Positions 22,780 to 57,793 of a DNA stretch of 64,000 bases are shown here, piece by piece (the first letter of the stretch is position 1; each line of letters opens with the position of its first letter). The stretch spans positions 1,922,001 through 1,986,000 of the forward strand of contig NW_026570230.1 of assembly GCF_019649055.1 (NCBI RefSeq), read 5' to 3'. The stretch comes from Paramacrobiotus metropolitanus. Taxonomy: Eukaryota > Tardigrada > Eutardigrada > Parachela > Macrobiotidae. The translations under genes were made by a program, and so were the position numbers. Under the pieces are notes generated by a model. The model had not been told where the DNA came from, ran no database searches, and saw only the letters and a list, made by a program, of their open reading frames with translations.

Positions 22780-23967
22780 ATGTCCTTTAACTGTGTGGCG
22801 GTACCGGCAAATGTCACCTGTTGGAATAATCTGACAACTAACAGATCCTTCGGTTCTCTCCCGGCCCGATGGATCCAGCCATGGGCGGCCACCTACCTGT
22901 TCCTCTGCTTCGAAGGGGCCGTTGGCAACCTGCTCATCGTGGGTCTGATCTTCTCTAACAGTAAAATGCGGACGGGATGCGGTGTATTAATCGGACACTG
23001 TCTCATTGCGTACTCCGTACTATGCGGCTTCAGTTTTCCCATTGTCGCGACCAGTGTCTATCGCAAACAAATGTTCCGCTGGCAGATGGATCCCAAAGAC
23101 TGCCGACCCTACATGTGGATACAAATGGGATGCCGGTTCGCGGCATACTGGTTCGATCTGTACATTGCCATTAACCGTGTGGTGGCGCTGTGTTTCCCAC
23201 ACAAATACCGGCAATTTTCCCGTGCACGCACCGAAATCCTGGTGGTCTCCGTGTTGTGGGTAGCAGCATTTCTGCTATCCGGTTTCGGGTTTTTTAATTT
23301 CGGGATGGTATTCATCATGTTGCCCTTAGGCACCTGTGCTACTTTACCTGTTGGGCGTGTAGGATCGGCTGTAGTTTTAATTGGATTTTATGGTCCCGGC
23401 GCTTTGACAGCGGGGGCGTATCTTTTTGTATATGCCAAGATTGTGCGCAGAAAACAGCAGACGGAACCCGAACGCACAACCAATGATAATAAGGCTAAGA
23501 AACAGACCACGCGGAAGCGGATGATCACCACCAATATGATGTGTGCGTCGTTTGTGTGGACAGCTGCCTGTTCCATGATCTTGCCGGTGATGATAAATAT
23601 GATAAATGTTGCCGAAACCGATTTGCGTTACCCGCTGATCGTCATATGGTTGGCGGCTGTGCAGCTTGTCGGATATGCTTCAAATCCGGTAAGCTTTATA
23701 CCAATTGATTAAATGCATTCAAAAAATATATCTCCTTGAATTTATGATAATCCAGAATTTTTTCAGGTTATCTGCTTTGCAATGAAACCGGATTATCGGT
23801 TGGAAGTAAAAAGAGTGTTTCAGACCTGGTGTTTACCGCATAAAGCTAGTCGCGCGAGAAAGGCTTTGGGAACCGGGAGTGAGCTGAAAGATGTCACTAA
23901 CACAGGAAACACTCGTTCTGGTACCAGATATAACACTCAAATAGCCTTAGCGATCAGGCACATTTAA
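22780..23967 (+). CDS. Orphan rhodopsin-class GPCR
   Basis: Two-exon model, 22780-23688 and 23767-23967 (phase 0), giving 369 aa. The N-terminus has sequons (NVT, NLT, NRS). TM1 carries the GN pair in EGAVGNLLIV. The end of TM3 reads AINRVVALCFP, so the DRY motif is replaced by NRV. A Cys pair (before TM3 and in LGTCATLP of loop 2) could form the usual disulphide. TM7 crosses the intron as YASNP then VICFAMKPDYR, an NPxxxF variant of NPxxY, followed by a basic cytoplasmic tail. Loop 3 is long and polar. Likely a plasma-membrane receptor of a lineage-specific family also represented at 11197 (broken) and 56328-57793. Ligand unknown. Confidence 0.85.
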
Positions 23968-29520: not shown

Positions 29521-29526
29521 TATGTT

Positions 29527-29792
29527 AGTAGTAGAGGCATTTGTTCGTATACGCGTTTTTGAGTGATAGGCTAACCTGAACGAGTTTTTTATTATAAGGA
29601 GGGTAACCTGTACATGTTGTTCAAGAGGAGGCTAAGTGGAACGAGTTTGCTTAATATATATGGGTGTAGCGTATGGGAACAGCTAGATAGCTGTGATAGT
29701 GGTAACCACCCTTTGGTGATAGTTACTAGGTGGTGTAAAATATTGTAACCCTGCGGTATAGTACTGCAGGGTGTAAAATGTAACTGCTACTT
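29527..29792 (+). repeat. Polinton left TIR
   Basis: 266 bp, the reverse complement of 52134-52399 with no difference that I can see. It starts AGTAGTAGAGG and is flanked on the left by TATGTT. The inner end carries two copies of the element's recurring motif (29729-29750 and 29769-29784). The TBP-like gene stops 6 bp inside the TIR boundary. Confidence 0.97.
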
Positions 29793-29797
29793 ATTTG

Positions 29798-31023
29798 TTA
29801 GCCGTTAAGATGGTTGTATTTGTTGTACATACTCGTACATACGTACACACTTCGCCACCGGTACAGTTTTGCTTTTAATTCCAATAATGCAGCGTCTAAA
29901 TTCTCAGCGGACTTGGCGCCCAAGAAATTACATTTCCCAGAATGAAAAAGAACAGCAGTGCATGTCGATAAGCGAATAGAGAGACCAGTAAATAGTTCAG
30001 GAGTATAGGATAAATGCAGGCGATTACTAATATCTTCTAAGCTTAATTTATAACCAAAGTCAAAAGTACCAATCATGTTGACCACTCGAAAATTATGAAA
30101 TAAACAACGATATCCAAGCGTACGCAATAAACTAATGAAATAGTGTAGTAGAATACGAGCATCCCGTCTGGAGGTGCCTCCGTTTACCGTAATCCGTCCA
30201 TTGGTGTATAGCTGGCAGTGACCTTTGAATGGTTGGTTGGTCCGCAGGAGCAATCCGGAAAATCTATGCGGTAGATACTGGGCCATCGGTAGTTTCCGCT
30301 CCAGGTCCGGTAGGTTTAGCGTGCAGCTTAACTCCGCAGTCACCACAACATTCGTCACCTTGACTGTCTGTATAATACGAGTACATTTATTAGCAAATTG
30401 TTAGTTAGAGTAAAGGTAAGCAATGACCAGTCCTTACCGCGCCAATAATCGTTTCCACATTCGCATTCATGCTTGGTCAGCTGGGTTTTGCGGGCGGGCA
30501 AAGCCATCATGCAACTGGGGCAGATCGTCGGATCCTTGCTTAAATATACTTCGGTCAGCCATTTTGCGTAGGCGGCAGGTTTGTTGTACTTGCTGGGGCG
30601 ATCATTGGACAGGTAACGGAACGGTGGGCAGTCCAAATCGTCCAGATTGATAACAGCAGCCGGTCGCAAGATAGGAGCGAGTAGCGCACACTTGTCGGCT
30701 CCTTTGGCATAGAACTTTACGTCATGCTCCACAGCGTAGGTGTAGTCCCGGTCATCGTCAGTACCATTAAACGTCACAGCGTACCAGGTGTCCAGAGTAT
30801 TCCGTAAACTGCGTCGGTTTTCCGACAACTGCATACCGAACAGTACTCCCTTATTAAGGTTTTCTAAACCAAACTCTTCAACAATGTAATCTTTAGACGG
30901 AAAGAAAACGTTTGAAAACATGCTGCTGGCTCGCTCAGGGCAAATAATGGCCAAATGTTTAATGATCTTAACGTTTTGCATCTCAGTATACTGCGCATCG
31001 ACAACACAGTGGAGAGGAGCCAT
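29798..31023 (-). CDS. TATA-binding-protein-like protein with zinc-binding N-terminal domain
   Basis: Two exons, 31023-30438 and 30363-29798 (phase 1; donor GTAAGG, branch-like CTAAC, acceptor ACAGACAG), giving 383 aa. Residues about 197-375 read as the two direct repeats of a TBP saddle. Repeat 1 is VVVTAELSCTLNL...HRFSGLL...QLYTNGRI. Repeat 2 is NMIGTFDFGYKLSLE...YTPELFTGL...AVLFHSGKCNFLGAKS. Three of the four DNA-kinking Phe positions of TBP are kept (HRFSG, ELFTG, VLFHSG) and the fourth is Tyr. Residues 1-195 are not recognised; they end with CPSC-x15-CEC, a probable zinc ribbon. Established: TBP nucleates promoter recognition. Inference: the element brings its own promoter-binding factor. 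It is divergent from the PC4-like gene. Start chosen at the ATG of MAPLHC. Confidence 0.72.
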
Positions 31024-31374: not shown

Positions 31375-32433
31375 ATGGAGTTCCTCGCTGATATTCCATC
31401 AACACCCCGGAAGAACCCCAAGCGCAAGTTGACCTTCAAGTTCCCCAAGGACCGCCCGGAGGACCGCACGGAGCTGGAGCCCATCAAGCGCCAGAAGCTG
31501 GTTAAGCAAGAAGCCACCTATCCACCCAGTAAGCACACGCGTTTCGCTTTTACCGAACAGGGACTGCCGGTTTACAAGATCGGGTTCGACAAGTTCGCTC
31601 TGGTCCGCTGGCTGGGAGGAGAGACGAAGGTCATCCTGGCCGAGTTCAAGGAGCAGCCTGATGGGACGTTTAAACCGACGGATGCCAACAAGTACATCGC
31701 CATGACGGTCAACAATTTTTTTCGCCTGAGCGGTTTAATCCTGACCGGGAAAGCTGACCTGGACTCGAACACGTCATCATTTGACAACGGTAAGCTGTCG
31801 CCGCATTTCTGCTTGGACGACAACCTGTACTTTCGCTGGAGCCGCTACAACGGTATGGATCTGGCTACTGTGCGTCGCTTCAACCTGACGCCTAACAAGG
31901 ACCTGTACCCGACCAAGATGGGGATTTCTTTTGGACGCAAGGCCTACGTAGGACTGAAGGAGCTCGTTGTGGATTTTACCTTACTGAAGGAAATCCGGGA
32001 CATCAATAAAGCTCATGACATTACTCCGGATCCAATGCCTGGGCTCGCTTCAGTCAGTTTGAAACAGGTGAATCAATGATTGTGTGATTATTGTATATTA
32101 TCCTTATTATTTTATTTCATCCTTATTATGTATTGTGCAGCATTTATACTGTTTTAATTTTTTGTTTTGTAATAGGAACTGGCGGAGATTATGTTTCGTA
32201 AAATTCGTGAGCACCGGGAAAGCACTATTGGACGCACACCAATGCGAGGAATTGCCACCGATGAAGAATGGACTATGGCCGAAAAAGACATTTTGGAAAA
32301 GAAACAAGTGCATGGTGTGCTTTTGATGTTGAATCAGGTTAATTACGAACAGCTGCTGGCATTAGATTTGGAAGGTTACATGACGCAGTTTCGCACCGAA
32401 GTGCGCGCTCAGCTGGATAAAATGATGATGTAA
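31375..32433 (+). CDS. Tandem PC4-like (SUB1-type) coactivator protein
   Basis: Two exons, 31375-32067 and 32176-32433 (phase 0), giving 316 aa. The N-terminus is basic (KNPKRKLTFKF, KRQKLVKQ) and could direct nuclear import. Two segments match the PC4 fold pattern: about residues 65-117 (YKIGFDKFALVRWLGG...VILAEF...DGTFKPT...YIAMT) and about 150-205 (LYFRW...ATVRRF...DLYPTKMGISFG). PC4 proteins bind single-stranded or melted DNA and stimulate pol II initiation. The second exon is a charged helical tail. It is one of the few + strand genes of the element, divergent from the TBP-like gene, so the two may act together in transcription of the element. Alternative: a ssDNA-binding replication protein built on the same fold. 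Confidence 0.6.
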
Positions 32434-32479: not shown

Positions 32480-32995
32480 TTATTTCACTAAGCGAGAAAT
32501 TTGATTCTCGAGAAATTTACTGTTACATATTTGTGTATTTAAATTAAAATAATGGTTAACATATCGACAGACCATCTTGTCATTATTAATTTTATTATCA
32601 TTAAATATTCTGATAATCGCTCCGAACGGCTGACCACTACACCGTTGTAATAAAAAAAACATACAATATTGACCACAAACGGTAGAGTAATCAGACTGCA
32701 ACACTTCACTTTGAGTAATCAATCGATCGCCATTGCAAAACCGTTTCTGCAGAGCTTCGCTGTAGTACGCTGGATTTTTGCCGTACGAATCGAATATTTC
32801 CATGACGTCTGGCCGATCTTGGTAAACGGCAATCCAGTGTTCACCGGGTTGCTTGGCTGGGTCGGTATTAACAATACACGTAGCGGGATAGGGTCGTAGG
32901 TCCAACGGAACTTGATCGGCAGCGAACACGCCACGAAAATGAGCATTTGTAATGGCATTGGCTCGCATTGCCGCTGATATTTGCTCCGAGTTCAT
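32480..32995 (-). CDS. PRO: Adenovirus-type maturation cysteine protease
   Basis: 171 aa, single exon. The catalytic triad of the adenain/Ulp1-like fold is visible in order: His in GEHWIAVY (about residue 53), Asp in EIFDSYG (about 69) and Cys in CGQYCMFFL (about 111), with the preceding Gln of the oxyanion hole region. It processes virion precursor proteins in adenovirus-like particles. The ATG overlaps the stop of the major capsid gene (ATGA). Tail-to-tail with the PC4-like gene. Length is a little shorter than adenovirus protease (about 204 aa) but usual for Polintons. Likely located in the assembling capsid. Confidence 0.9.
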   Translation of the reverse strand: MNSEQISAAMRANAITNAHFRGVFAADQVPLDLRPYPATCIVNTDPAKQPGEHWIAVYQDRPDVMEIFDSYGKNPAYYSEALQKRFCNGDRLITQSEVLQSDYSTVCGQYCMFFLLQRCSGQPFGAIIRIFNDNKINNDKMVCRYVNHYFNLNTQICNSKFLENQISRLVK

Positions 32996-34335
32996 GTTGA
33001 AAAGTCAGCAATTAATTGTCGATGCTGGTTAAATTCAATAATGCTATCAAATACCATCATACAAACCATCATTAAGGATTTTGTATGTGATTTTGCAAAG
33101 GTCACCGATACGCTTAAATTTCCCTGCTTGATTAAAGTCAGCGGTCCTCTTCCTGTGTGACCAGGCGTTAGATCAAAACCAAAAATAGCATAACCTTCGT
33201 TATAGCCATTACGATCCACTGTCCAGCATCCACTAGGATGGTTTTTAGCGCCCAACGCATCCAATAGACCATCGTAGCATTCTAATGATTGGGACTTTGC
33301 AAAATCGGCATTGTAGGGTTTAGTAGGATAACTCTGACCATCTACTTCCACACTGATTTGACGTACGTCAAAATGATGAAAATTAAAAGGATTTTTCTGA
33401 TAATTTCCATGAAAGTCCTCACTATCTAGAAAACCGATAAATACCACCTTCGGTATTTGTCCAATCTGCAGGTTGGTCACCACTGTGCTCTGTGTGTTCT
33501 TGGGAATATCGGCCACACGCATTACGATGCGCTCGATATGATATTTCACCGTCCGGTTCAGCAGTTGACCCGCTACGGCTGTCATAAAGTCCGGAGCTGG
33601 TATATAGCGCCGGACTGACAACCGAGCATTGCGGATAAAAGGTTTGTATGTTTTAGTGTCTTTGTCCGCATCGTACACGCGTAGACAAAATTCCGGTCGA
33701 TTCATAACCAGACGTAATTGGACTGGTATTCCGGTACATAATGGTTTACTTTGGTCGAATAAGTCGGCAAATATTTTACCGGACAGTTGAACATACTCAC
33801 CTTTACCGAAAAGGTCATGGCGCCACAATTCACCCGTGTTGTCGGGATTTGTAGCCATTTTTCCCGGTGTATCCAGAGCAAAGCATGCTGAGGTCAGCTG
33901 TGACCTTTGAGCTTCCGGTGAATGAAATAGTAAAGATTCAAAATAAGCACGATAGGGGTAAAACGTGGCAGCATCTGAGATTAGGCGGTTGGCTACAGTC
34001 ACATGCACCGATTGGAACAGAGAATGTAGAAAGTTATTGACAGGGGCGACCCCCTCCGCGGCAGTTATTACTTCAAAATTATTCTGATTATTTTTCTTGA
34101 CTTTGATGGCTACTTCTAGTTCCAAAACCATGTCGCCTAAACTCAGCAGACCCGCTGTACTAGGGGGAATATAAAAATTAATGTCTCCAGCAGTACCGTC
34201 TTCCGTAAAAATGGTGGTGGGATTCAGTTTCTCATGTTCAGTTCGCCAGCGATCCGTCAACGTGGCCGGCAATGCAAACAGTTGATTCTCTAACTGCATT
34301 GCTGGCTCCGAGTTGGGCATCATCATCATCGCCAT
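32992..34335 (-). CDS. MCP: Double-jelly-roll major capsid protein
   Basis: 447 aa, single exon. Conserved Polinton/adintovirus hexon-like block: NNFLHSLFQSVHVTVANRL followed by FYPYRAYFESLLF (about residues 100-135). The C-terminal domain includes IPKVVFIGFLDSEDFHGNY. In this family the protein forms the pseudo-hexagonal capsomers of an icosahedral shell. It starts two bases after the stop of the small virion gene upstream, and its own stop overlaps the protease ATG, so these genes are packed like a polycistronic block. The fully open frame suggests the element can still make capsids. Confidence 0.88.
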   Translation of the reverse strand: MAMMMMPNSEPAMQLENQLFALPATLTDRWRTEHEKLNPTTIFTEDGTAGDINFYIPPSTAGLLSLGDMVLELEVAIKVKKNNQNNFEVITAAEGVAPVNNFLHSLFQSVHVTVANRLISDAATFYPYRAYFESLLFHSPEAQRSQLTSACFALDTPGKMATNPDNTGELWRHDLFGKGEYVQLSGKIFADLFDQSKPLCTGIPVQLRLVMNRPEFCLRVYDADKDTKTYKPFIRNARLSVRRYIPAPDFMTAVAGQLLNRTVKYHIERIVMRVADIPKNTQSTVVTNLQIGQIPKVVFIGFLDSEDFHGNYQKNPFNFHHFDVRQISVEVDGQSYPTKPYNADFAKSQSLECYDGLLDALGAKNHPSGCWTVDRNGYNEGYAIFGFDLTPGHTGRGPLTLIKQGNLSVSVTFAKSHTKSLMMVCMMVFDSIIEFNQHRQLIADFST

Positions 34336-34337
34336 AA

Positions 34338-34736
34338 TTATAGAAAATCTGGAATATCGGTCGGGGGAATTCTACGAGTGCGCTTAACAGATTTACGTGG
34401 TTTACGGGAACGTTTTTTCCGAACACCTTCGCCTTGCTGTATTTGCTTATTAAGGGCTTCGCTAGCTTTGGCCGCTACGTCTTTAATAGCTCCGGTCGCT
34501 GCTTCTTGCAGGTGCGGTGTGGCTGCTTCGAGTGCTGCTTTAGCGTGAGGTGCTGCTTTTCGTATAATAGGTTTAGCAAATGAAGTTATCTTGGCAATAA
34601 TATTCTTTAATACTTGCGCAAAACCAGAACCATTCTGCAGAGTACCACGATAACGCAGAAGAGGGCTACCACCAGTTTGCGCCACAAAAACATCGTCATA
34701 ACGCCGGGGATCAGGCACGTACGGTACCAGAGGCAT
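34338..34736 (-). CDS. Small basic virion protein with candidate protease sites
   Basis: 132 aa, single exon. The N-terminus has two candidate adenain-type cleavage sites, QTGG|S (residues 20-24) and QNGS|G (34-38). A cationic amphipathic helix region follows (FAQVLKNIIAKITSFAKPII, about 39-58), then Ala-rich helices, then a strongly basic tail (GVRKKRSRKPRKS...KRTRR). This layout is like adenovirus minor core or membrane-lytic proteins (pVI, pX) and is commonly found between the capsid genes of Polintons. Likely role: DNA condensation and/or membrane penetration after maturation. The exact homologue is not certain. Confidence 0.6.
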   Translation of the reverse strand: MPLVPYVPDPRRYDDVFVAQTGGSPLLRYRGTLQNGSGFAQVLKNIIAKITSFAKPIIRKAAPHAKAALEAATPHLQEAATGAIKDVAAKASEALNKQIQQGEGVRKKRSRKPRKSVKRTRRIPPTDIPDFL

Positions 34737-34737
34737 C

Positions 34738-35736
34738 TTAAAATAATTTCTGAGGGCGAAAATGCAGTTTTACTAACGATTTACCGTTTTCGAATTTGGC
34801 GTTCTCTCCCAAGTCATCAGCTAGAGTAAGGTGTACTGTTTCAAAGTGTTGAGCTATAACAGGGACATAGTGCGCTTTATCAAATCTTGCTTCCACGAGT
34901 GGATCAGTTCCCCCTCTAATAGGTACATTTCGCAAAAACTGCGCTGCCGTATCTCCAATTAGGCTGTAGTCAGCCACGTCACAGTACACAAATACATTCT
35001 GATTTTGCAGGTGTGCATTTGCCGTTTGTTCAGCAATAAATTGACGAGTTTCAGAATAATTTTCATCTTTGCAATTCTCCATAAATTTTTCAACAATACC
35101 ATCAAGCGCTAAGAATGCCTCGCCTTCTTTTGTGAGATCCCAAAAATCTGTTGTTAAATGGGATTTTCGGAATCCTAATATTTTTTGTATTGCCAAGGAC
35201 TCGGGAGGAAAGTGCACAGTGGTTCGAGGCGTTCCCACGGTCAATTTGACCCGCAGATTTTTTCTGTTGTCGAAACTTGCATCCAGATATTTTCTTTCTG
35301 GCAGAATGCTCAAGTTCTTAAGATAGGCCCCATTAACACGAAAAAATGTATCGTCATTATCACTCATAACCGGTGTGTTTTTATTGATAACGTCCAATAT
35401 CGCTCCCACATTTTTATAATTACCCGCGGGGATAATAATATCGGTTGTTTCGGTAAGTCGTCCAATTGCTTCCGCTAAATTATCCGTGTTTGCTTGTTTC
35501 TCTCTATTCCATACCCTAGTGTAACACAGGTCGTATATGGTTTCCAAAATAATATGCTGGTCATGGCTCAGTGTGTATAGAGAATTATTGCACTGAAATT
35601 CCACCAAAGCCATTTCCCAGCGGCCTTTAAGAGTGATTGGGTGCTTTAGCCGTGTTGTCCAGTCCGATGCCGTGTTCTCCGAGAAGCTGTTGACATCGCT
35701 AGGTAGTGTTAGGTAGAATGGCGAACCTTCAAACAT
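34738..35736 (-). CDS. Minor (penton-type) capsid protein
   Basis: 332 aa from the ATG of MFEGSPFYLTLPSD; the open frame extends 15 codons further only through a GTG, so I use the ATG. The N-terminus has the family-typical block of a short beta strand, then SFSENTASDWTTRL and LKGRWEMALVEF. The C-terminus ends with a pattern of short strands culminating in KSLVKLHFRP. In Polintons this single-jelly-roll protein occupies the capsid vertices. It overlaps the 3' end of the integrase gene by 28 bp, and its stop is one base before the next gene's ATG. An IRGG|T sequence (273-277) fits the protease consensus but would remove a conserved strand, so it may not be used. Confidence 0.8.
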   Translation of the reverse strand: MFEGSPFYLTLPSDVNSFSENTASDWTTRLKHPITLKGRWEMALVEFQCNNSLYTLSHDQHIILETIYDLCYTRVWNREKQANTDNLAEAIGRLTETTDIIIPAGNYKNVGAILDVINKNTPVMSDNDDTFFRVNGAYLKNLSILPERKYLDASFDNRKNLRVKLTVGTPRTTVHFPPESLAIQKILGFRKSHLTTDFWDLTKEGEAFLALDGIVEKFMENCKDENYSETRQFIAEQTANAHLQNQNVFVYCDVADYSLIGDTAAQFLRNVPIRGGTDPLVEARFDKAHYVPVIAQHFETVHLTLADDLGENAKFENGKSLVKLHFRPQKLF

Positions 35737-36764
35737 TTTTCCTTGATCCACGAGTCGTGCTCTGGTCCGTATCCTAACCACCTTACTAATGCTTTTCCCT
35801 TACTACGTTTAATAACAAAATCTATAGTGTGTTCCTTATTCTCAGCATTCCGTACACGCGATAATTCTTGCTCGTAAAATTGGCCTTTAATAATTACGCC
35901 GCGTTCATCTTTTAATCGGTACACTGGCACAGGATGCCGAACGATTTTGGTAATGGTAAATATTTCTTCTTTGAAATTATAGTTGTATCCTTTCTCCAGT
36001 TTTCCTTTATTAACGGCTAGTCGAACTGTATCACCGATCTTGAATTTGGGTTTCTGTGGAGTGCAATCTTTATATAATTTATTGAAAACGTCCAGAGAAT
36101 TTTCTGGCGTAACATCGACCGGGCGCATTCCGTGCGCACGATGCACAGAATGGTTGTACGAGTCTATTAAATCTGCCAATTTGTCTGTGTACCGCGTAGA
36201 TACCCTGTGTCGGAATAGCCGTACCATTCGGGACTTTATCGTTCGAATAACTCTTTCTACCATGGCACATTTAATATCATCGTTTTCAGAAGTAAAAAAT
36301 TCAATTCTTTTAGCTTTTAGGAATTGTTGAACGACATCATTGACAAATTCACGACCTTTGTCAGTTTGCACTCGCATTGGCTCTCCGAGCTCATCAAACA
36401 CTTTTTCCAAGGCGCTGCGAGTTTCGGTCGCATTTTTACTCTTCATTTGAATTACACACAGCTTTTTCGAGAAGCAATCAATGGCAAATAATAAATATTT
36501 AATACCATCATTTTCTTTATAGTACTTGGAAAAATCCGCTAAATCAATCTGGTATTGCATCTGCAGATCTGTCACTATGATCTGGTTGCGTTTAAAGCGC
36601 TTAGGTCTATCTTTTGTTACCGTGTATTCATCCAGCTCCTCCAGTAGCTCCTTGGCTTTCGCACGGTTCAGTTTGGGTTGCTTGATCGCTTGATAAAATC
36701 TTTCTACGCCTCCAAAGCTTCCGGGGTTTTTGGCGTCGAGGTATTTCTTCAGGAGTTGATTCAT
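35709..36764 (-). CDS. INT: Retroviral-type integrase with C-terminal chromodomain
   Basis: 351 aa from the ATG at 36764; the open frame upstream lacks an ATG. The rve core has the acidic triad: Asp in YQIDLADFSKYY, Asp in QTDKGREF and Glu in MVERVIRT, with 34 residues between the last two. GIKYLLFAIDCFSKK is the typical core strand. The C-terminus carries a chromodomain (VIKRSKGKALVRWLGYGPEHDSWI region, quoted here by its ends VIKRS and DSWI), which can direct insertion through histone marks. It catalyses insertion of the linear element and creates the 6-bp target duplication seen at the ends. It sits within the packed minus-strand block. Confidence 0.93.
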   Translation of the reverse strand: MNQLLKKYLDAKNPGSFGGVERFYQAIKQPKLNRAKAKELLEELDEYTVTKDRPKRFKRNQIIVTDLQMQYQIDLADFSKYYKENDGIKYLLFAIDCFSKKLCVIQMKSKNATETRSALEKVFDELGEPMRVQTDKGREFVNDVVQQFLKAKRIEFFTSENDDIKCAMVERVIRTIKSRMVRLFRHRVSTRYTDKLADLIDSYNHSVHRAHGMRPVDVTPENSLDVFNKLYKDCTPQKPKFKIGDTVRLAVNKGKLEKGYNYNFKEEIFTITKIVRHPVPVYRLKDERGVIIKGQFYEQELSRVRNAENKEHTIDFVIKRSKGKALVRWLGYGPEHDSWIKEKCLKVRHST

Positions 36765-37288: not shown

Positions 37289-37625
37289 TACCTATAAGAC
37301 TGGTTAAAACGCCAGCAAAAACGGGTAGCAACGCACCGATAAAACCACCTTGCTGTAAAATCTGTCGCTTTTGTTTGGAAGGATAGCGCCGTAGCGCGAG
37401 CAGTCTCAGTGACTTGCGGTGTCTTTTACAGGTATCCAAATGTTCCGCCGGTAACGTAATAGTGTTTTTAATAATATTCACAGCAATCTCTTCAATGGCC
37501 TTAAGCTGATTCCGGTTGACATACTCTAATAACACCTTTCGCTGTTTCGGTTTAAGGCTCCGTAGGGTAATAATATATGGCGCAAGGGCTTTTACTCTGT
37601 CCGACATGGTTTCGGTAAACAACAT
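37281..37625 (-). CDS. Small Polinton-conserved protein with hydrophobic C-terminus
   Basis: 114 aa. Pattern: LRSLKPKQRKVLLEY, then EEIAVNIIKNTITLP, then KSLRLLALRRYPSKQKRQIL, QQGGF and a hydrophobic end with ALLPVF. I have seen this KP-x-QRK...KR-x-IL-x-x-GGF layout as a conserved small gene in Polinton/adintovirus-like elements; the function is not established. QQGG|F (91-95) is a candidate protease site that would release a 20-residue hydrophobic peptide, possibly membrane-active. Its start overlaps the ATPase gene end by 34 bp. Confidence 0.6.
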   Translation of the reverse strand: MLFTETMSDRVKALAPYIITLRSLKPKQRKVLLEYVNRNQLKAIEEIAVNIIKNTITLPAEHLDTCKRHRKSLRLLALRRYPSKQKRQILQQGGFIGALLPVFAGVLTSLIGNG

Positions 37626-38281
37626 TCGTTCTTGCTTAAATAGATTCGCATAAACTGTTCAGGCATTACGTGTGAGCGAACCCTTAAATAGTCGGGGCAG
37701 GTACTTCTTAGATCTAGAATAATTGGCTGGTACGGTTCAGAGGTCACTTTGCGATACGCATCCACCAAATGCGATAAGCCCATCTGACGAGCCAAGGTAC
37801 TTATCTGATTTACATCACGGACATTTTTAAATAATACTAAGTACTGACAATTTAGCATAATATCACGCATTGCCTTTCCTTGTTTGTAGAGGTTTTGCAG
37901 TATCAAGAGAACAGAAACGTTCTTATGATGTATGCCTTGTGTAAAAAGCTTAGTGCAACGCAAATCTTTGCTTATGACATGTGAAAGGTCATCAATAATA
38001 AGCAGCGTATGCTGATTAGTGTTAAAAAAATCGTCTTTGCCTAGTACTTCTTCGACACCTTGAATAAACTCTACGGTCGGCACGGCTTCCAATAGTACAT
38101 CAAATCCTTTTTGGTATTCACCGTAGCAGTACACAATACGATCAGGCGGACGATCAATCATTTTTTCTCTGTTTTTAATTAGATTAAACACAAATTCACT
38201 TTTGCCGGACATGGTCGGCCCGCACACACAACAACCAAAACATGCTTTGAACCGCGGATCGCTGTCTAACACTGAATACAT
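37592..38281 (-). CDS. Genome-packaging ATPase (A32/FtsK-HerA type)
   Basis: 229 aa, single exon. Walker A GPTMSGKSEF (about residues 21-30) and Walker B TLLIIDDLS (about 92-100), followed by a conserved LILQNLYKQGK sensor region. Members translocate the DNA genome into preformed capsids using ATP. It is the first core gene after the BIR gene on the minus strand, and its 3' end overlaps the next gene. Length and motifs are typical for Polintons and large-DNA-virus relatives. Confidence 0.92.
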   Translation of the reverse strand: MYSVLDSDPRFKACFGCCVCGPTMSGKSEFVFNLIKNREKMIDRPPDRIVYCYGEYQKGFDVLLEAVPTVEFIQGVEEVLGKDDFFNTNQHTLLIIDDLSHVISKDLRCTKLFTQGIHHKNVSVLLILQNLYKQGKAMRDIMLNCQYLVLFKNVRDVNQISTLARQMGLSHLVDAYRKVTSEPYQPIILDLRSTCPDYLRVRSHVMPEQFMRIYLSKNECCLPKPCRTE

Positions 38282-38359
38282 GATTACACCAGATTGTTAA
38301 CTCACCAAAGGCATTACAATACATAACGCTGATACAAATGCAACGAAACACTTAAATAC

Positions 38360-38698
38360 TTATGTCCACCATTCCAAAGGTTGCGCTCCTCCCGAAAGTC
38401 TGTTGTGAACCTCATCAACCCAAGCACTCCCACGCATTTCCAGAAGGTACTTGCACAAAGGGTTGAGGGTGACATGCTTTCTCCATGCATCGATGCTGAC
38501 CCGATCATCTAGATCCAGTTGACACTGGCAGTGAACACAGGTTGCAGACCAATCCCCCATGTAAACAAAACCGGCTTCTGCTAATTGGCGTGACAAGTTT
38601 TGCTTGCAAGGAGACTTCCAAAAATCGTATGTAGCTAGCCTAGATTCATACGTGGAGAATACCCCGTCACCCATACGAAAACTTTCCATAAAACTCAT
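38360..38698 (-). CDS. Single-BIR protein (inhibitor-of-apoptosis type)
   Basis: 112 aa. One BIR zinc module is evident: RLATYDFW at the start, LAEAGFVYMGDWSATCVHC, then the ligands CVHC-x17-H-x6-C (WRKHVTLNPLCKYL), with an Asp/Trp-rich loop. There is no RING or CARD domain. BIR proteins bind caspases or IAP antagonists; stand-alone viral BIR proteins block death of infected cells. Inference: the element may use it to protect the host cell during a productive phase. It lies upstream of the ATPase in the same direction, directly downstream of three copies of the element's upstream motif. The C-terminal LSGG|A (101-105) fits the protease consensus. Confidence 0.8.
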   Translation of the reverse strand: MSFMESFRMGDGVFSTYESRLATYDFWKSPCKQNLSRQLAEAGFVYMGDWSATCVHCQCQLDLDDRVSIDAWRKHVTLNPLCKYLLEMRGSAWVDEVHNRLSGGAQPLEWWT

Positions 38699-38827
38699 TT
38701 TTGTGTTTATTTAAGTGCTGGACAAAAACCTTATAAAAATCAGTTTTAACTACCACAACTAAAGAAAGGCTAGAAATAAGTTTAGGATGTCGGTGGTTTA
38801 TTTTGAGCAGTTCGGAACACTAAAAAA

Positions 38828-39520: not shown

Positions 39521-42500
39521 TTATTTCGGTACATAACCAAACGGTAGCGTGTTCCAGTTTTCCACTATTCGCCGCTTATCATAAGTCATCCGAAGTGTTT
39601 TAGACATATTGTACTGTTGTAAAGTCAAAGTAGGTTTATCACGCTTAATTAAATCAGGATAATTAACGGAAAGTTCTTCACAATTATCTAACATTAACAA
39701 CATCTTCTCAAAATTTATTACTTCACTAGTCTGCCCATTCAGCGTGAATCCTTTGACCTTTACCGTATTGGCGTTGTCGTTGGTCACATAGGCGTACGTC
39801 TTCGGGCCCAAGCTGACAAATTCGGTAATGTACTGGCCCGGCTTTAGTTCGTCGGTTAGGTCGCCCAGAAATTTACCCGTTGCTGGTTTCGGTTTGTCTG
39901 GCTGATCCACAAAAATTATGGAATCTAAACAGATATTACTGCAGTTTTCACTGTCCAACAGCACACGCAGTACGAACCCACCTGTATCAAAGTATAACAG
40001 GCGGTCTTGTACGTGTTCCATAAACTGCAGTAAATGAAGGCGAGCCCAACATGTGGTGAATCTAAATTCCAGAGTTGACCTTTATGCGGTTCAATTAAAA
40101 AAAGAGATATACATACGCTGCAAGGACCACATTTGTACTCGGATCTTCTTCGAGAAACCCTTCTTCCTTCGTAAACATCACCTGCAGCACTTCCTCCCCA
40201 AACATGTCCCACGAATGAACGTGGTACTGACCGGAGAGTAGCAATTCATAAAAGCGTGCTGGCTCGCTAACGTACTCCGTGATCAACCTATCACTCTGCA
40301 TTCCCAAACGCCCCCAAAAACTAACAAAAAAAAATTTGTATATTTTTGATTTTTTTTTTCAATAAACTGGTTCACCTGTTTAGCATCAATTTCGCCAGGG
40401 AGCGTAATCCAGGATTCTCTTTGATCTTTTCCCGTTCCAGTTCAATACCCTCTTTACTCTTGTACTCGGTAATATACTGAGATTTCTGGGCTTCCGTCGT
40501 CACATCTACAGGCCATCCGCTGGCTTCGGTTTTAATCTTGAGGAATTTGTTGATATATCCCTCAAAAAGACGATCTTCGTGTTGATCAAACTGCCAAACT
40601 TCGTGAATCGAACTCATTATATAACCACGATCCAATGCAGCAATAATTTCTGGTGTGCACCAGGTCCCAGTAAGCATCCGCTCTTCATCAGTATGCTGGC
40701 AGGGAGCATTGATGCGGTGGTCGGCACATGTACGACACAACGGGAACGTTAATTTGTCTTGGCTGCGGTACGGTAGTACTGGCAAATAGAGATCTGCAGG
40801 CGGAAGTATATCGCAAGACATCAAACCGAAATAGCTGCGCGGGTCTGTAAAATTGTTAGTAATCACCCGAGGATGGCTGGTGGGATAGCACTTGGTTTTG
40901 TTGACAAAAGGATACTCGCTGCAGACGTCATAATAGCAGATTCTTTCATTGCCGTTGATTTTATAATGAAGCCGAGTGGCATTCGTCCGTCCTCCGTAGA
41001 AGGCGTCACGCGGGTTAATTCCGGCCCGGATCTTGACCATTCGGATGAATTCATTGATTTCTGGCTCGTCCACGCATAATCTATCGTACTCGTGCTCCCA
41101 GATAACGACCACCTGAAATCCCAAATCTCTAAAATACTGATCTCTGTCCAGCGTTTCCTTGTAGATGTCCGACATCTTTATTCCACGGTACGGATGTACT
41201 GTATCAGCAGCGACGCACTGAGGACAGCCGTGGAACCAACAACCATGAAATTCGTAAACAGTTTTAGTTTCTGCGCAATATCCATCAACAAAGTATGTAC
41301 CAATCTTGTACTCTGCTCCGGATAGTTTGGTCTGCAATATGCACATGTTCTCGGCTTCCGACCACTGTAACCATCGTAAGGCCTTGCTAGACTGGGGACG
41401 ATTGCGGTTATATCCATGATTCGGAATTAATCCAATCTGCTCTGGCTGGAGTAAGAACGTTCGCCAGTAATTACTGCAAACACCGGCGATGGTGAAAGCT
41501 GAGACGAAAGGGTTAAGTCCATCGCTTATTTCCATGAATAGTTGACAAAACTGCTGGCAACACTTGCGAAGAACCGTGACGTCATTACGACAATAGCCCT
41601 CAAACTCACGGCGGAAATCGAACAATCCATTTTTGTCAACCACTTCAGTTTCGTACCAGTGATCAAAGGTAATCCGGTCTTTTTGTTTCATGCTGGTATA
41701 GCCGTACTCGTCCTTTGACGGGAAAGGAACAATCTTGTTCCAGTTCTCCTCACGGTTGAATCTGTGCGGAAAGGTACCTTTACTCGTGTCTTCTAGACCG
41801 AACGTAGCTGGCAATTTTGAAAGGCTTTGTGGGTTATAGCTATAGCTATCACGAAAGTGTATGTCGTAAGGCGCCGGCACGTCCAGCATCAAAATCTTGC
41901 CCCCGTTCATGATCACTTTGGGAACAATCCCATTGCGTAGTAGCCAATTGAGGATAAAATAACCATCAAAACCCTGTAAAAGTTACCGCTTAAGGTCACC
42001 GAATAAAGGTCACCGACCAAAGGTCACCGAATGCAAACGTCAACTCAAGGTCGGTCGCCAACTACATAGGTTACCGAAGAGAAAGGTCACCAGTTACAGA
42101 GGTCACCAACGCTACGCAAACTCACTTTGAAATTATGTGCGATGACATAAAATCCCTTGTGGTCTTCCTGGAAGAGGAATTCGCAAAGGTCATTGGTAAC
42201 ATCACCTGCAATAGGAGTAGTGGAATCAGGAAACGTCCACTCTTCCCCATCCCTGTTCTGGACAACCTGTTTGATAAACACAGCATGAAACACTGCAACG
42301 ACAATTAGGTCGGTCGCAACTCACCGCCAAATTGGGCACCAGTTCACCAGATGCTGATACGTACGTCTCAAAATCAAAATAGAGAAACTGGGCAGAACTG
42401 CAGCGGGCTTTTCGATCAGATGTGAAGGGTTTCGGACGCATGAAACAACGATGCTCGGAGGGCAAATCAAAAATGCTACACACTTTGCATTTGGTTTCAC

Positions 42501-43755
42501 CACAGCGATGTGGATTGTCAGGTTTGCGCTGAGCGTTCGAATATATACAACGACACTGGACACACACCTTTACGGTATCACACAGGGCTATCCGTTTCTT
42601 ATGCCGACCTTTGCCACTACCGAGCTTGTGGTGATCAAAGCAGTTCTGACCAGGAAACTGTCGGTTGCAGTCCATACACGTGATAAAATTAGCCGTATCT
42701 TCAGGACAATCAACACGCAAACACAGGGCACACTTTCCTTTACAACGGAGTTTGACCCGACTACTGTATCCTTTCATACAGTCAAAGCACCAATAACTGC
42801 GTTTGAAAAAGGCGGGAAGAGATTTCAAAAGATCAAAATGACCGTCATGATGAAGTAAAATGATATGCTTTTTATGCTTATGACCTTTATGCACGATAGC
42901 GTTCGCATGATCAATGCTGACAACAATAATACGGTAACCTTTGAGAACTTTCTCAAATGCTGGAATGTCGCTTAGACTTAATGACCGCTCCGGTAAACCC
43001 GCTCGCAAAATCAAAAGCTTAGCTAGCTTGGTGATTTCTCGCTTACCCCTCCGCAGGCTTCGAAAACGTTTGGAATTCTTGTCGGCCAAAGCTTTTCCCA
43101 TCACCAGTGCTCGGGCCATGCAAAGGTCATCATCTCCATTAACAATAACCACAGACTGCATCTTCATGAGGCGGCGCCTCAAAAGGATAGGAACATCTTT
43201 CACACAGCGACCGGAGGGCAGCTGCGTATGTTGAGCGGTGATTTGAAAGGAGTCATCAATAACAAACTCTTCATGGCTATTCAGCACGCGCTGTATATCC
43301 GTCACCCAGCGTTTGACGCTTAGCTCGGAACGAAGCGTCAGCGAAGTGTACAAAGGGCGATTAAAATGCCGAGAATCAATCCGTAAACGCACGCGATCCG
43401 TATCCTTAACACCGTTCAAAACAACAAATAATATATACTCAAGAATAGAAACGATAGTCTCAGGGACATCACTAACATCAACATCTTCGAGATTCGAAAA
43501 TTTAATGTTAAAAGTATTTAGGTGGATACGAAATTTTGGAGAATACTTGCGACCAATACACTGGATATCGACATTTTCTATAACACTGATATTACCACCC
43601 CATTGAGGCACAGGATCTTCATAAACCCAATCGTCTTCAGCAGCTAGAAGCGCGGCAGCGTTTAATGTTTCAGCATCTAACGCTACAGGGTCATCATTCC
43701 ATTCACCATCGGCCAATAAAGCGACCATATCTACGTCTGATAACATGTAGTCCAT
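39521..43755 (-). CDS. POLB: Protein-primed family B DNA polymerase
   Basis: Six exons: 43755-42325, 42266-42126, 41973-40376, 40320-40117, 40061-39982 and 39924-39521. All junctions are GT-AG and the phases sum to one frame of 1285 aa. Motifs in order: Cys-rich N-terminal region (WCFDCM, CKGKCALC, CMDC); exonuclease I FDFETY; exonuclease II HNF-K-GFD, formed across the second intron; exonuclease III GYCRNDVTVL; polymerase A YYDVCSEYP; B KLMLNSFWG, formed across an intron; C YFDTDS, formed across an intron. Three catalytic motifs are thus interrupted by introns and restored only by splicing. The enzyme replicates the linear element from its TIRs with a protein primer. Two copies of the element's upstream motif lie 80-140 bp before the ATG. 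Confidence 0.93.
41985..42110 (+). repeat. AAGGTCACCGA short repeats inside a polymerase intron
   Basis: The second intron of the polymerase gene (41974-42125) is almost entirely made of imperfect repeats of AAGGTCACCGA (clear copies at about 41991, 42005 and 42021, with degenerate ones up to 42105). No other intron of the gene has this. Confidence 0.7.
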
Positions 43756-49326: not shown

Positions 49327-50204
49327 TCACTCCAGATTTCTAATGCCTGCGGTTCCAGCTACATAAATTTCCGTTTTCTCCCATCCATCTTCCGGTATTA
49401 TCGTCATAGCTTTATCTAGACACGGCTTCCAGGCTGCCCGCAGCCGCTGCGACTGATTCCTGAATTTTAATAGTATGCCTGCAACAGTGCAGCGTAAATA
49501 TTTGCGACGACTTAAATCCAATATCAAAATCGATAACATCCACCATATCACAAGGCATAACATAACGCGAAAACCGATTTCAAATTCAGATCTGATCATA
49601 TCAGCCAAGGCTTTCGAAATTCGAGTGAAGACCTTAACCACGCAAATTTAGAATTCAAAGTTAATGGCACATGTGCAAAGCCAGATTAACGGTGATAATT
49701 CCCACTTTGCCTTCGCGCAGCTTGTACTCGTACAAGTAACTGTTTCGCAGTTAAGAGTTAACGAGACAATCAATAATTTTTGCTATCTCAGGCATTCTAT
49801 CGTATTCAATTAAAGATTCCAGCTAACTGATTCAGGAAAACCAGCAGACACTTCAAAAAGATTTGCAAAACTTTCAAAGAGCATTCAAATTTCTGAGGTT
49901 ACTATAAAACACGGAACCGTAAGGGAAATCTCTCGTGATATACGGTAAGATTCGGCAGTAAGTTCTCAAACACTTACCAACGCATTCCACAAATTCTTTC
50001 TGCTCAATATAGCCCGTCCCGTTGACTTTATCCCCGCAATAATGAAAAACATGAAATCTGGTATGCGTACATCCAGCATCCATAATAATAACATAATTCT
50101 CCGGAATATAGCTGTAGCGAAAGTAAAAAATCACCACAGAGACAACACAACCAGCGCCCAGGATTAAACCATTGATGATCAAGAGAAACACTCGACGATT
50201 GATC
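49327..50204 (-). pseudogene. Ecto-apyrase (ENTPDase/CD39-like) gene fragment
   Basis: Two coding blocks on the minus strand. Block 1 (about 50204-49978) has an N-terminal anchor helix (RRVFLLIINGLILGAGCVV) and then PENYVIIMDAGCTHTRFHVF, which matches apyrase conserved region 1 (DAGSTHT type). It ends at a GTAAGT donor. Block 2 (about 49500-49335) has KPCLDKAMTIIPEDGW then IYVAGTAGIRNL, which matches ACR2 (GATAGMR type), and ends at GTGAGC. No convincing ACR3-5, start codon or continuous splice phase is visible. Intact enzymes hydrolyse extracellular ATP/ADP, a danger signal. So this is either a decayed captured gene or one with exons that I cannot place. Confidence 0.5.
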
Positions 50205-50803
50205 CTGCAAGGTCTGCGGGTTCCCCGCAGCCTGGTATAAGTTGAGATGCTTTCTCATTCGGCCGCTCGACTAGTTTAGATTTCCCAGAAGGCACCATAC
50301 CATCATACGCGCTCGAAAAATTACTGGATGTTTTCATACCAGTCAACGCTACAGTTATGCAGAGAACTATTTTCAAAAACATCAGAATGAGAAAGGCAGA
50401 ACACTTGCAACAACGGTGGGTTAATGCAGGTTTGCTTAAACGTGTGGCATCACAAGCTCCTGCACCAGTAGCGAGGTGAGATTATTGCGCAGCACGCTTG
50501 TACTAGCATGCTGCAATATTTAGTTAGGGTTGTGAACACCTAGCTGTGTCCGGCGCGTTGCGCTGCAATTTAAATAAATTCATAATTCTATTTCTTTTTA
50601 CTGAACAGTTTTATTGACATTACAGATAGAAAAAATTCAACATTTTGAACGTAACAAAAACAAGCACATCTCAAGCAGTAAACTCAGGATCTTCAGACGG
50701 TTCTCAACGCTAAACGCATAACACTAACCGTACCGAAACGCAACTCGTAATAGGCATAAATTGCTGTGTTAATGCGATAGAAATTACGGACGAGCTTGCC
50801 AAC
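50205..50803. other. Polinton spacer
   Basis: No supported gene. It may contain the missing 5' exon(s) of the apyrase-like gene: an ATG frame on the minus strand (near 50382) begins with a hydrophobic, signal-like stretch, MFLKIVLCITVALTG, but I cannot join it in phase. Confidence 0.3.
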
Positions 50804-52133: not shown

Positions 52134-52399
52134 AAGTAGCAGTTACATTTTACACCCTGCAGTACTATACCGCAGGGTTACAATATTTTACACCACCTAG
52201 TAACTATCACCAAAGGGTGGTTACCACTATCACAGCTATCTAGCTGTTCCCATACGCTACACCCATATATATTAAGCAAACTCGTTCCACTTAGCCTCCT
52301 CTTGAACAACATGTACAGGTTACCCTCCTTATAATAAAAAACTCGTTCAGGTTAGCCTATCACTCAAAAACGCGTATACGAACAAATGCCTCTACTACT
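52134..52399 (-). repeat. Polinton right TIR
   Basis: Reverse complement of 29527-29792, 266 bp with no difference that I can see. It is followed by the target duplication TATGTT (52400-52405). Motif copies lie at 52142-52157 and 52176-52197. Confidence 0.97.
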
Positions 52400-52405
52400 T
52401 ATGTT

Positions 52406-56327: not shown

Positions 56328-57793
56328 TCACCCAGTTTGATTCGTAGTCCGTCTGTTGCTTAAAAAACCGGGGTCCGGCTTGGGTGTTCGCGTATTCGAT
56401 CCGTATGGAATACCGTCACTTCCAGGACCAACACGCTCTGATCTTGCGCTTTTTGTGCAGAGCACGCGCTTGAGCTCGCTACGGTAGTCGGGTTTCATTG
56501 CAAAACAGATCACCTGCAATGCAAATGCCATCGCGATCACACGCACATATTTACAGTATACAGTATACATTCATTGACCGTATACACATTATACGTAACT
56601 ATATTTTCAGTTTTTCATGAATGTAAAAAAATACACGTACATATAATATCTAAAAATATGAATATGTGTAACCATATGCATTCGTATATTATAAAAAAGT
56701 ATTTGCTCATATAACTATACCGTATATATAATTCCATGTGTTCATAAATCAGGTGTATATTTATTTGCCACTATCAATCCGGTAATTTTTACAATGAATA
56801 CCTAATTTAATAAGTGATATATCACTTATTAAATTAGGTATTCATTGTAAAATTTACCGGATTGCTAGCGTATCCTAACAACTGGACAGCGCCCAGTCCA
56901 ATGACCAGCAGCGGATACTCGTCCTGTGCGACCTTTACAAAGGGTGCCGTTACCGGCAGAATCATGGAGCACGCAGCATTCCACACAAAGGAAATACACA
57001 TCATGTTCGTTGTCACTATACGGGCGCGCTGGTTTGTACGCTTGTCCTTCAGGACACCTTTAGTATTCCTCGAACTCTCCCGTTCAGTTTGTTGCTTGTT
57101 CCCGTGTAGCGCAAGAATTTTCATATAAATGAAAATGTAAAAAAGCGCAGTGAGAACACTCGGCAAATACGTGGTAATCACTAGGCTCAACAATGCGAAA
57201 CGCCCACTCGGCACCGTTGCACACGTCCCCAACGGAAGCATAATAAAAGTCATCCCTAGATCAAATAAACCCAGCGTGGCGTAAAGACAGGCTGCTATCC
57301 ACAAAATAATCAACACCGTCACTTCGAAGCGTTTACGCGAGAAACTGCGGTATTTGTGGGGAAAACACAGCGCCACGACACGGTTAGCGGCAATGTAAAG
57401 GTCAATCCAGTAGCCGGCATTCCGGCAAGAAATTTGAATCCACTGCAGGAATTTACAGTATTTGGCATCCATCGGCCAGTGGGATACGTGTTTACGGTAA
57501 ATACTGGTCCCCACAATGGGAAAACTGAAGCCACATAGTACGGTGTAGGCGATAAGACAGTGCGCGATTAATAATCCGCATCCCTGGCGCAGTTTATGGT
57601 TGCAGAGGATTAAGATAACAATAAGCAGGTTACCGATGGCGCCTTCAAAGCAGAGAAATAAATACACCGAAGTCCACGATCTGATAAAAATTGCCGGTAA
57701 ATAACCGGATGACAATGTACCATGTGAAGAATTAGTAGCATTTTCGGCAATCCAGGATGAATTCCCTGGAAAAAGCGTAACATTCCAGGACAT
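56328..57793 (-). CDS. Orphan rhodopsin-class GPCR, paralogue of the 22780 gene
   Basis: Two exons, 57793-56858 and 56513-56328 (phase 0), giving 373 aa. The ATG at MSWNVTLF is used; the upstream extension opens at GTG. The N-terminus has several sequons (NVT, NSS, NAT, NSS). TM1 is EGAIGNLLIV; the TM3 end is ANRVVALCFP (DRY replaced by NRV); loop 2 is LGTCATVP; TM7 is split by the intron as YASNP / VICFAMKPDYR. The intron position is the same as in the 22780 gene and in the dead copy at 11197. The 344-nt intron holds a 90-bp palindrome covering the donor site. Plasma-membrane receptor, ligand unknown. Confidence 0.85.
56775..56864. repeat. 90-bp near-perfect palindrome over the GPCR splice donor
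   Basis: Arms 56775-56819 and 56820-56864 (45 bp each, one visible mismatch, no spacer), centre AAGTGATATATCACTT. The right arm includes the end of exon 1 and the GT donor of the minus-strand GPCR; the left arm is an inverted copy inside the intron. In the pre-mRNA this would form a hairpin hiding the 5' splice site. Confidence 0.9.

Follow-up and report, generated by a model that had tools for sequence, protein, structure and literature searches.

A TATA-binding-protein gene resident in tardigrade Polintons, with an altered DNA-facing surface

Polintons are thought to be viruses. Does one of them, in the genome of the tardigrade Paramacrobiotus metropolitanus, carry a TATA-binding protein (TBP) as a gene of its own, and what might such a protein do? 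The question arose from a sequence-only reading of a stretch of 64 000 nucleotides, hereafter the window, which proposed that a Polinton there encodes its own TBP-like factor, fused to a zinc-binding domain, and so can select its own promoters.

The element and its TBP gene

The features of the element are as follows, in window coordinates.

29521–29526, target-site duplication TATGTT, left copy, 6 nt
29527–52399, Polinton (Maverick) element, ~22.9 kb
29527–29792, + strand, left terminal inverted repeat, 266 nt, 100% identical to the right end
29798–30363, − strand, exon 2: complete TBP core with both repeats, not preceded by an ATG of its own
30364–30437, − strand, intron, 74 nt, with tandem acceptors ACAG/ACAG/TC 4 nt apart
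30438–31023, − strand, exon 1 (the 'N-terminal half'): predicted DnaQ/RNase H-like fold, CxxC...CxC end
31375–32079, + strand, PC4-like gene, divergent from the TBP gene (PF02229, 28.4 bits, cut-off 25)
32480–32995, − strand, adenovirus-type cysteine protease (PF00770, 1.4e-5, 25.3 bits, cut-off 21.3)
32992–34335, − strand, putative major capsid protein, 447 aa
34741–35736, − strand, putative minor capsid (penton) protein, named by position; no Pfam match
35712–36764, − strand, retrovirus-type integrase (PF00665, 3.5e-13), weak chromodomain match
37592–38281, − strand, packaging-ATPase-like gene (Pox_A32, PF04665, 3.5e-4, 20.6 bits, below the cut-off of 22.8)
39521–43755, − strand, family B DNA polymerase in several open pieces (PF03175, 6.2e-39 on 40375–41982)
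52134–52399, − strand, right terminal inverted repeat, 266 nt, 100% identical to the left end
52400–52405, target-site duplication TATGTT, right copy, 6 nt

Long terminal inverted repeats with a 6-bp duplication, an rve integrase, PolB and an adenovirus-type protease are all present, as expected of a Polinton, and the repeats, integrase, PolB and protease are held in common with animal Polintons, Mavericks and adintoviruses. The major capsid protein is named from its position and size because no profile matched it; Pfam, NCBIfam and PDB sequence searches returned nothing meaningful, and homologues lie at at least 90 loci in the genome. The putative penton protein, with either the window protein or its counterpart at locus L049 as query, has matches in other Polinton copies. 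A PDB sequence search with the PC4-like protein gave no match, and the window's own copy is not among the 10 matches listed by a PF02229 search of the genome; PC4-like relatives do adjoin TBP in other copies of the element.

Further features were observed in and around the element. Within it are a gene with a BIR (inhibitor of apoptosis) domain (38363–38710, − strand, 3.4e-10) and an open frame with a weak match to GDA1/CD39 nucleotidases (49877–50254, − strand, 23.3 bits, cut-off 24.9). Older inverted repeats, 72–77% complementary, flank it at 22900–23273 and 57285–57658, and given these the Polinton may be nested in another element. A near-perfect palindrome with 49-nt arms lies at 56771–56868.

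The assignment of the TBP core is secure at the level of profile and predicted fold. The window protein matches PF00352 at 103.5 bits (cut-off 22.9) in two stretches corresponding to the two TBP repeats, so that both halves seen by the sequence-only reading are borne out by the Pfam profile; the profile also matches 35 of 35 aligned relatives, and structure prediction returns the TBP saddle. The exon-1 protein is modelled with an RNase H-like fold of the DnaQ type. It lacks the DEDDh catalytic set, as we take that motif to be defined, D9 being the sole invariant acidic residue in 15 copies. Relatives of exon 1 are found in other copies elsewhere in the genome. At L049 (487–1296, − strand) there is also a stand-alone paralogue, separated by ~6–7 kb from the TBP pair, whose tail read in another frame (MTKETDVASAVALC) bears a faint likeness to the start of TBP.

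TBP genes across the genome

How general is the gene? In the genome searched (170 Mb, 533 contigs), the best 150 of 493 candidate matches were scored and merged, broken frames included, into at least 122 loci, comprising at least 121 of TBP type and one host TBP. Copies of the gene are present on contigs C131 and C196. In a random draw of 14 loci from 115, a relative of the ATPase or PolB lies within 2 kb of TBP in 12; the remaining two belong to the window clade and have PC4-like and exon-1 relatives beside TBP, and a relative of the capsid gene lies at 2.6 kb in one and 3.4 kb in the other. Exon-1 relatives were found at 10 of the 14 and PC4-like relatives at 7. Among the matches listed for both genes, a scored TBP locus lies no more than 15 kb from 66 of 90 capsid-gene loci, where the share of the genome within 15 kb of listed capsid genes is 1.7%, and 67 of 121 TBP loci have a capsid locus within the same distance. 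At least two of the 24 other capsid loci (on C1 and C26) carry an unscored TBP copy (L011 and L016).

Comparison of codons 25–166 of TBP gave dN/dS of 0.06–0.17 in 9 of 13 pairs, those nine having a finite dS of 0.14–2.7; the pairs share rows and are thus not independent; two of the remaining pairs are saturated, and two recent ones give 0.36 and 0.59. On these ratios the gene is under purifying selection. A tree of 50 rows sets the Polinton-type TBPs apart, at moderate branch support (92/87), from those of the host, human and E. cuniculi and from eight further TBPs taken from databases; some rows, L061 and L069 among them, lie on long branches. L069, L070 and L071 (and L061 and L066) make up a divergent subfamily of TBPs whose C-terminal tail is long and in L069–L071 reads RKKRKS...FTLTQCEKLVAQ.

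Relatives are found in other assemblies. A profile search returned 55 proteins, drawn from ena, jgi and lgn, with three also or only from ncbi; 43 of them share 43% identity or more with the window TBP. Contigs of five matching sizes (20036, 6732, 1728, 1439 and 827) are common to the TBP and exon-1 hits, and therefore the pair is probably linked in those assemblies too. Searches of viral_contigs with the TBP, the capsid protein and the exon-1 alignment found no relatives.

Judged from its recurrence across Polinton families and its pattern of substitution, the TBP-family gene is a genuine resident of the Polintons and not a host gene caught by accident, and the proposal that the element encodes a TBP-like factor of its own is upheld.

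Overlapping frames and the question of a fusion

The claim that this factor is fused to a zinc-binding domain is not supported in the form proposed, and fares differently according to the family. Outside the window clade, ten loci encode the N-terminal protein and TBP as genes that overlap in different frames, with TBP beginning at its own ATG; on this evidence we reject the fusion as the ancestral form. In the window clade the first part of exon 2, read in another frame, encodes the zinc tail of the exon-1 protein, and a fusion is possible there through the second of the tandem acceptors. Elsewhere, two loci (L065 and L068) have the exon-1 part and TBP in a single frame.

We rate the chance that the exon-1/TBP fusion is the working product in the window clade as substantial, though somewhat below even. 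None of the seven window-clade frames scored has an ATG before the TBP core, yet dN/dS among such frames is 0.09–0.17; 7 of 11 copies have the second acceptor, and the single-frame loci L065 and L068 provide a precedent. Against this, both NCBI gene models examined for the clade (P0001 and P0011) use the first acceptor, giving the zinc tail instead of TBP, and the second acceptor is missing from 4 of 11 copies, of which two (L015 and L017) nevertheless keep an open TBP frame. A phase-0 exon spliced to the first acceptor would, moreover, give TBP as well. In place of the lost ATG stands ACA, ACT or ATA, and because these differ among copies the ATG was possibly lost more than once, later than part of the divergence.

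Are the overlaps constrained in both frames? Between L050 and L051 only 0.5 of 12.3 synonymous sites are changed over the overlap, compared with 70 of 96 outside it, and between L050 and L065 the figures are 2 of 11.8 and 73 of 96. Such constraint was not clearly seen in the six other pairs, including window/L017 and L054/L062; because it is unclear in pairs such as window/L017, dual coding is not established for the window clade.

The DNA-facing surface, the candidate box and possible roles

We compared 39 Polinton-type TBPs with those of the host, human and E. cuniculi, using yeast numbering transferred through host-TBP motifs in our own alignment. The kinking phenylalanines F99, F190 and F207 and the dyad residue N159 are each retained in 39 of 39, in agreement with the earlier observation that three of the four are kept; the fourth is replaced (F116Y, 37/39). 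The base-contacting surface around them is changed: T124N in all 39, T215L in 38, L114Q, T112H, V122T and V213N in 37 each, L205V in 35 and V203T in 31 (serine in 6). The divergent L069 row has Tyr, Phe, Ile and Thr at T112, F116, V122 and V213. With F116Y and T124N this is not the set of base contacts and four phenylalanines of a canonical TATA-box reader. On this alignment the DNA-facing residues are conserved among the Polinton proteins but altered with respect to cellular TBP. Of the TFIIB contacts, E188 is retained in 35 of 39 and E186 in only 17; a basic residue (K/R) occupies position K133 in 18 rows and K138 in 14, and lysine occupies K145 in 7. The choice of contacts relevant to TFIIA and NC2 is one that we assume. 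The TFIIB family of the genome is not expanded, with 6 matches in only 3 loci.

Cellular TBP (the TFIID subunit; PF00352) differs from the Polinton proteins in several respects. The latter are 27–30% identical to host TBP, with Tyr at F116 and polar residues at L114, V122, T124, V203 and V213, and in the window protein one stirrup loop has an extra residue while the other lacks two. F116Y, T124N, V203T and L205V, singly or combined, are among the yeast TBP changes listed as abolishing DNA binding in Table 1 of PMC2265533. Another system to compare is ORF24 of KSHV, which mimics TBP, has a polar face rich in Asn and is described as reading TATTWAA at late promoters (PMC12529657). Like the Polinton protein it is a TBP-like domain in a virus-like element, with a polar DNA face and a TATTWAA motif; it is described as differing in its additional Pol II-binding and C-terminal DNA-binding parts and in lacking the TFIIB-contact glutamates, a loss not shared by the Polinton TBPs in view of their E188. 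African swine fever virus B263R is likewise a virus-encoded TBP-like protein (PMC5825884), in a large DNA virus where ours lies in Polintons of an animal genome. The likeness to ORF24 and to B263R is drawn from their descriptions in these sources.

Is there a sequence that such a face might read? The candidate is TATTWAAG, of which the window has the following sites.

34605–34612, − strand, TATTAAAG upstream of the putative capsid gene; a further copy starts at 34488
37683–37690, − strand, TATTTAAG(G) inside the 3′ end of the ATPase gene, 65 nt before the next ORF
38351–38358, − strand, TATTTAAG, candidate promoter element, 77 nt before the ATPase ATG

Counts were made in 15 pieces of Polinton DNA (96 kb, or 88 kb with shared stretches masked), which represent fewer families, as several share stretches (L063/L074, L061/L073, L061/L070 and L018/window; L061 and L073 have 438 nt in common at 99.5%). 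TATTWAAG is enriched in the Polinton DNA sampled, with 36 occurrences against 10.2 expected unmasked and 31 against 9.4 masked; 47.5 kb of other DNA has one, with 4.4 expected. TATTTAAG (21 against 5.1 unmasked, 17 against 4.7 masked) and TATTAAAG (15 against 5.1, 14 against 4.7) both contribute, while TATAAAAG is not enriched (6 against 6.8, 5 against 6.2). After masking, TATTTAAG ranks 24th of 54 101 8-mers by excess, and together with its complement first of the 2245 8-mers present in at least six pieces. The test of TATTTAAG is partly after the fact because the word was spotted by eye before counting, and TATTAAAG was counted once the ORF24 reading of TATTWAA was known from PMC12529657. 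In a holdout TATTTAAG occurs 14 times against 2.9 expected, where L074–L076 are near-identical and L063, used earlier, is 99% identical to part of L074; reduced to one copy per family the count is six, of which two fall in the stretch in common with L063.

As to position, only 6 of the 21 TATTTAAG sites fall in the 120 nt preceding an ORF start, a zone that takes in 9.2% of random points. TATTWAAG also occurs away from the element ends, and is absent from 7 of the 15 pieces, each shorter than 4.3 kb. At the end of the ATPase, YLR is written TAT TTA AGR in four families, those of the window, of L049, of L053/L064 and of L063/L074–L076; this is not so in L059, and the word was not found there in L061, L066, L073 or L077.

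Other words were considered. AAAGGTCA is enriched too (22 against 3.3 expected, masked pieces); it resembles what we take to be a nuclear-receptor half-site, and 14 of its 24 unmasked copies are in the window element (29793–52399). YAAAATG, with 23 copies in the window element and 14 in flanks 1.8 times as long, was rejected as a box, being present in only 4 of 11 other regions examined, with GYAAAATG in none of the 11. TGTAAA, to which yeast TBPm3 is reportedly linked, was likewise rejected (31 in the element, 30 expected from the flanks). By eye, short family-specific repeats are seen between the PC4-like and exon-1 genes (L051 1357–1836, L046 2098–2446 and L018 1073–1494).

We give a little better than an even chance to the reading that the resident TBP marks the element's own promoters, acting with host TFIIB and RNA polymerase II at a box different from that of host TBP. 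A TBP that cooperates with host TFIIB but prefers other DNA is suggested because the altered base face is conserved, E188 is kept and the TFIIB family is unexpanded. We infer that the protein is made and binds DNA; most likely it would bend and mark the element's promoters and would recruit host TFIIB and the polymerase to them. Unlike host TBP it would read a TATT-type box, for which TATTWAAG is the candidate binding site. It comes from a cassette with the zinc protein of DnaQ-like fold and often the PC4-like protein, and in the window clade would be expressed through the second splice acceptor. Several observations count against this reading: the poor retention of E186 and of the basic residues at K133, K138 and K145, the few TATTTAAG sites close before ORF starts and the pieces that lack TATTWAAG, the enrichment of other words, the copies without a second acceptor and the lack of relatives in viral_contigs. 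The earlier suggestion that the element selects its own promoters thereby gains indirect backing, from the conserved but altered DNA face and from the enrichment of TATTWAAG; the autonomous viral phase that it was taken to favour stays a conjecture.

Other roles have to be weighed against this. A TBP fold might instead bend DNA for replication or packaging, marking ends or origins, with the PC4-like protein binding single strands. The nearness of the cassette to a PolB or ATPase gene in 12 of the 14 sampled loci, and the family-specific repeats, would suit such a role; retention of the TFIIB contact E188 and the occurrence of TATTWAAG beyond the element ends would not, and we consider it unlikely. 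A little less likely still is a decoy for host shut-off, titrating TFIIB off host promoters without starting Polinton transcription. For this, E188 is kept while several base contacts carry the changes listed for yeast as abolishing binding (PMC2265533, Table 1); yet a decoy need not keep a DNA face, and the conservation of Asn159, the three kinking phenylalanines and the new polar residues therefore counts against it. That the gene is a recent, functionless passenger copied from the host TBP gene, which does exist in this genome, is scarcely credible given its low identity to host TBP, the moderately supported branch that sets Polinton-type rows apart, the purifying selection and the relatives in other assemblies.

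Returning to promoter marking by the resident TBP, a bolder version is tentative, and we would hold it the less probable side of the question: an orthogonal core-promoter system of animal Polintons, in which a polar-faced TBP reads TATTWAAG and ignores host TATA while still using host TFIIB, convergent with the TATT box and TBP mimic of herpesvirus late genes. TATTWAAG boxes would then stand before Polinton genes, perhaps late, structural ones; the cassette would overlap a gene that resembles an exonuclease but has lost the customary catalytic residues, and a splice choice of 4 nt would, in one clade, switch between zinc protein and TBP extension.

Among the titles and abstract openings listed for Polintons and Mavericks, also in combination with tardigrades, we found no earlier report of a Polinton TBP, a scope that does not establish its absence from print, and the main texts of PMC11071308, PMC11071296, PMC10120064 and PMC8097293 on animal Polintons, Mavericks and adintoviruses mention neither TATA nor TBP. 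PMC10675990 describes TBPs as sporadic in elements of an alga; these elements, which yielded no double jelly-roll capsid gene, it links to mirusviruses.

A selectively maintained Polinton TBP, whose DNA face differs from those of the host, human and microsporidian TBPs compared, offers a handle on how Polinton transcription starts, and a natural TBP that combines several changes known from yeast DNA-binding-null mutants. The tardigrade genome has at least 121 scored TBP-type loci, some of them broken, beside a single host-type TBP locus. A virus-like mobile element, present there in many copies, may switch on its own genes with a start signal of its own.
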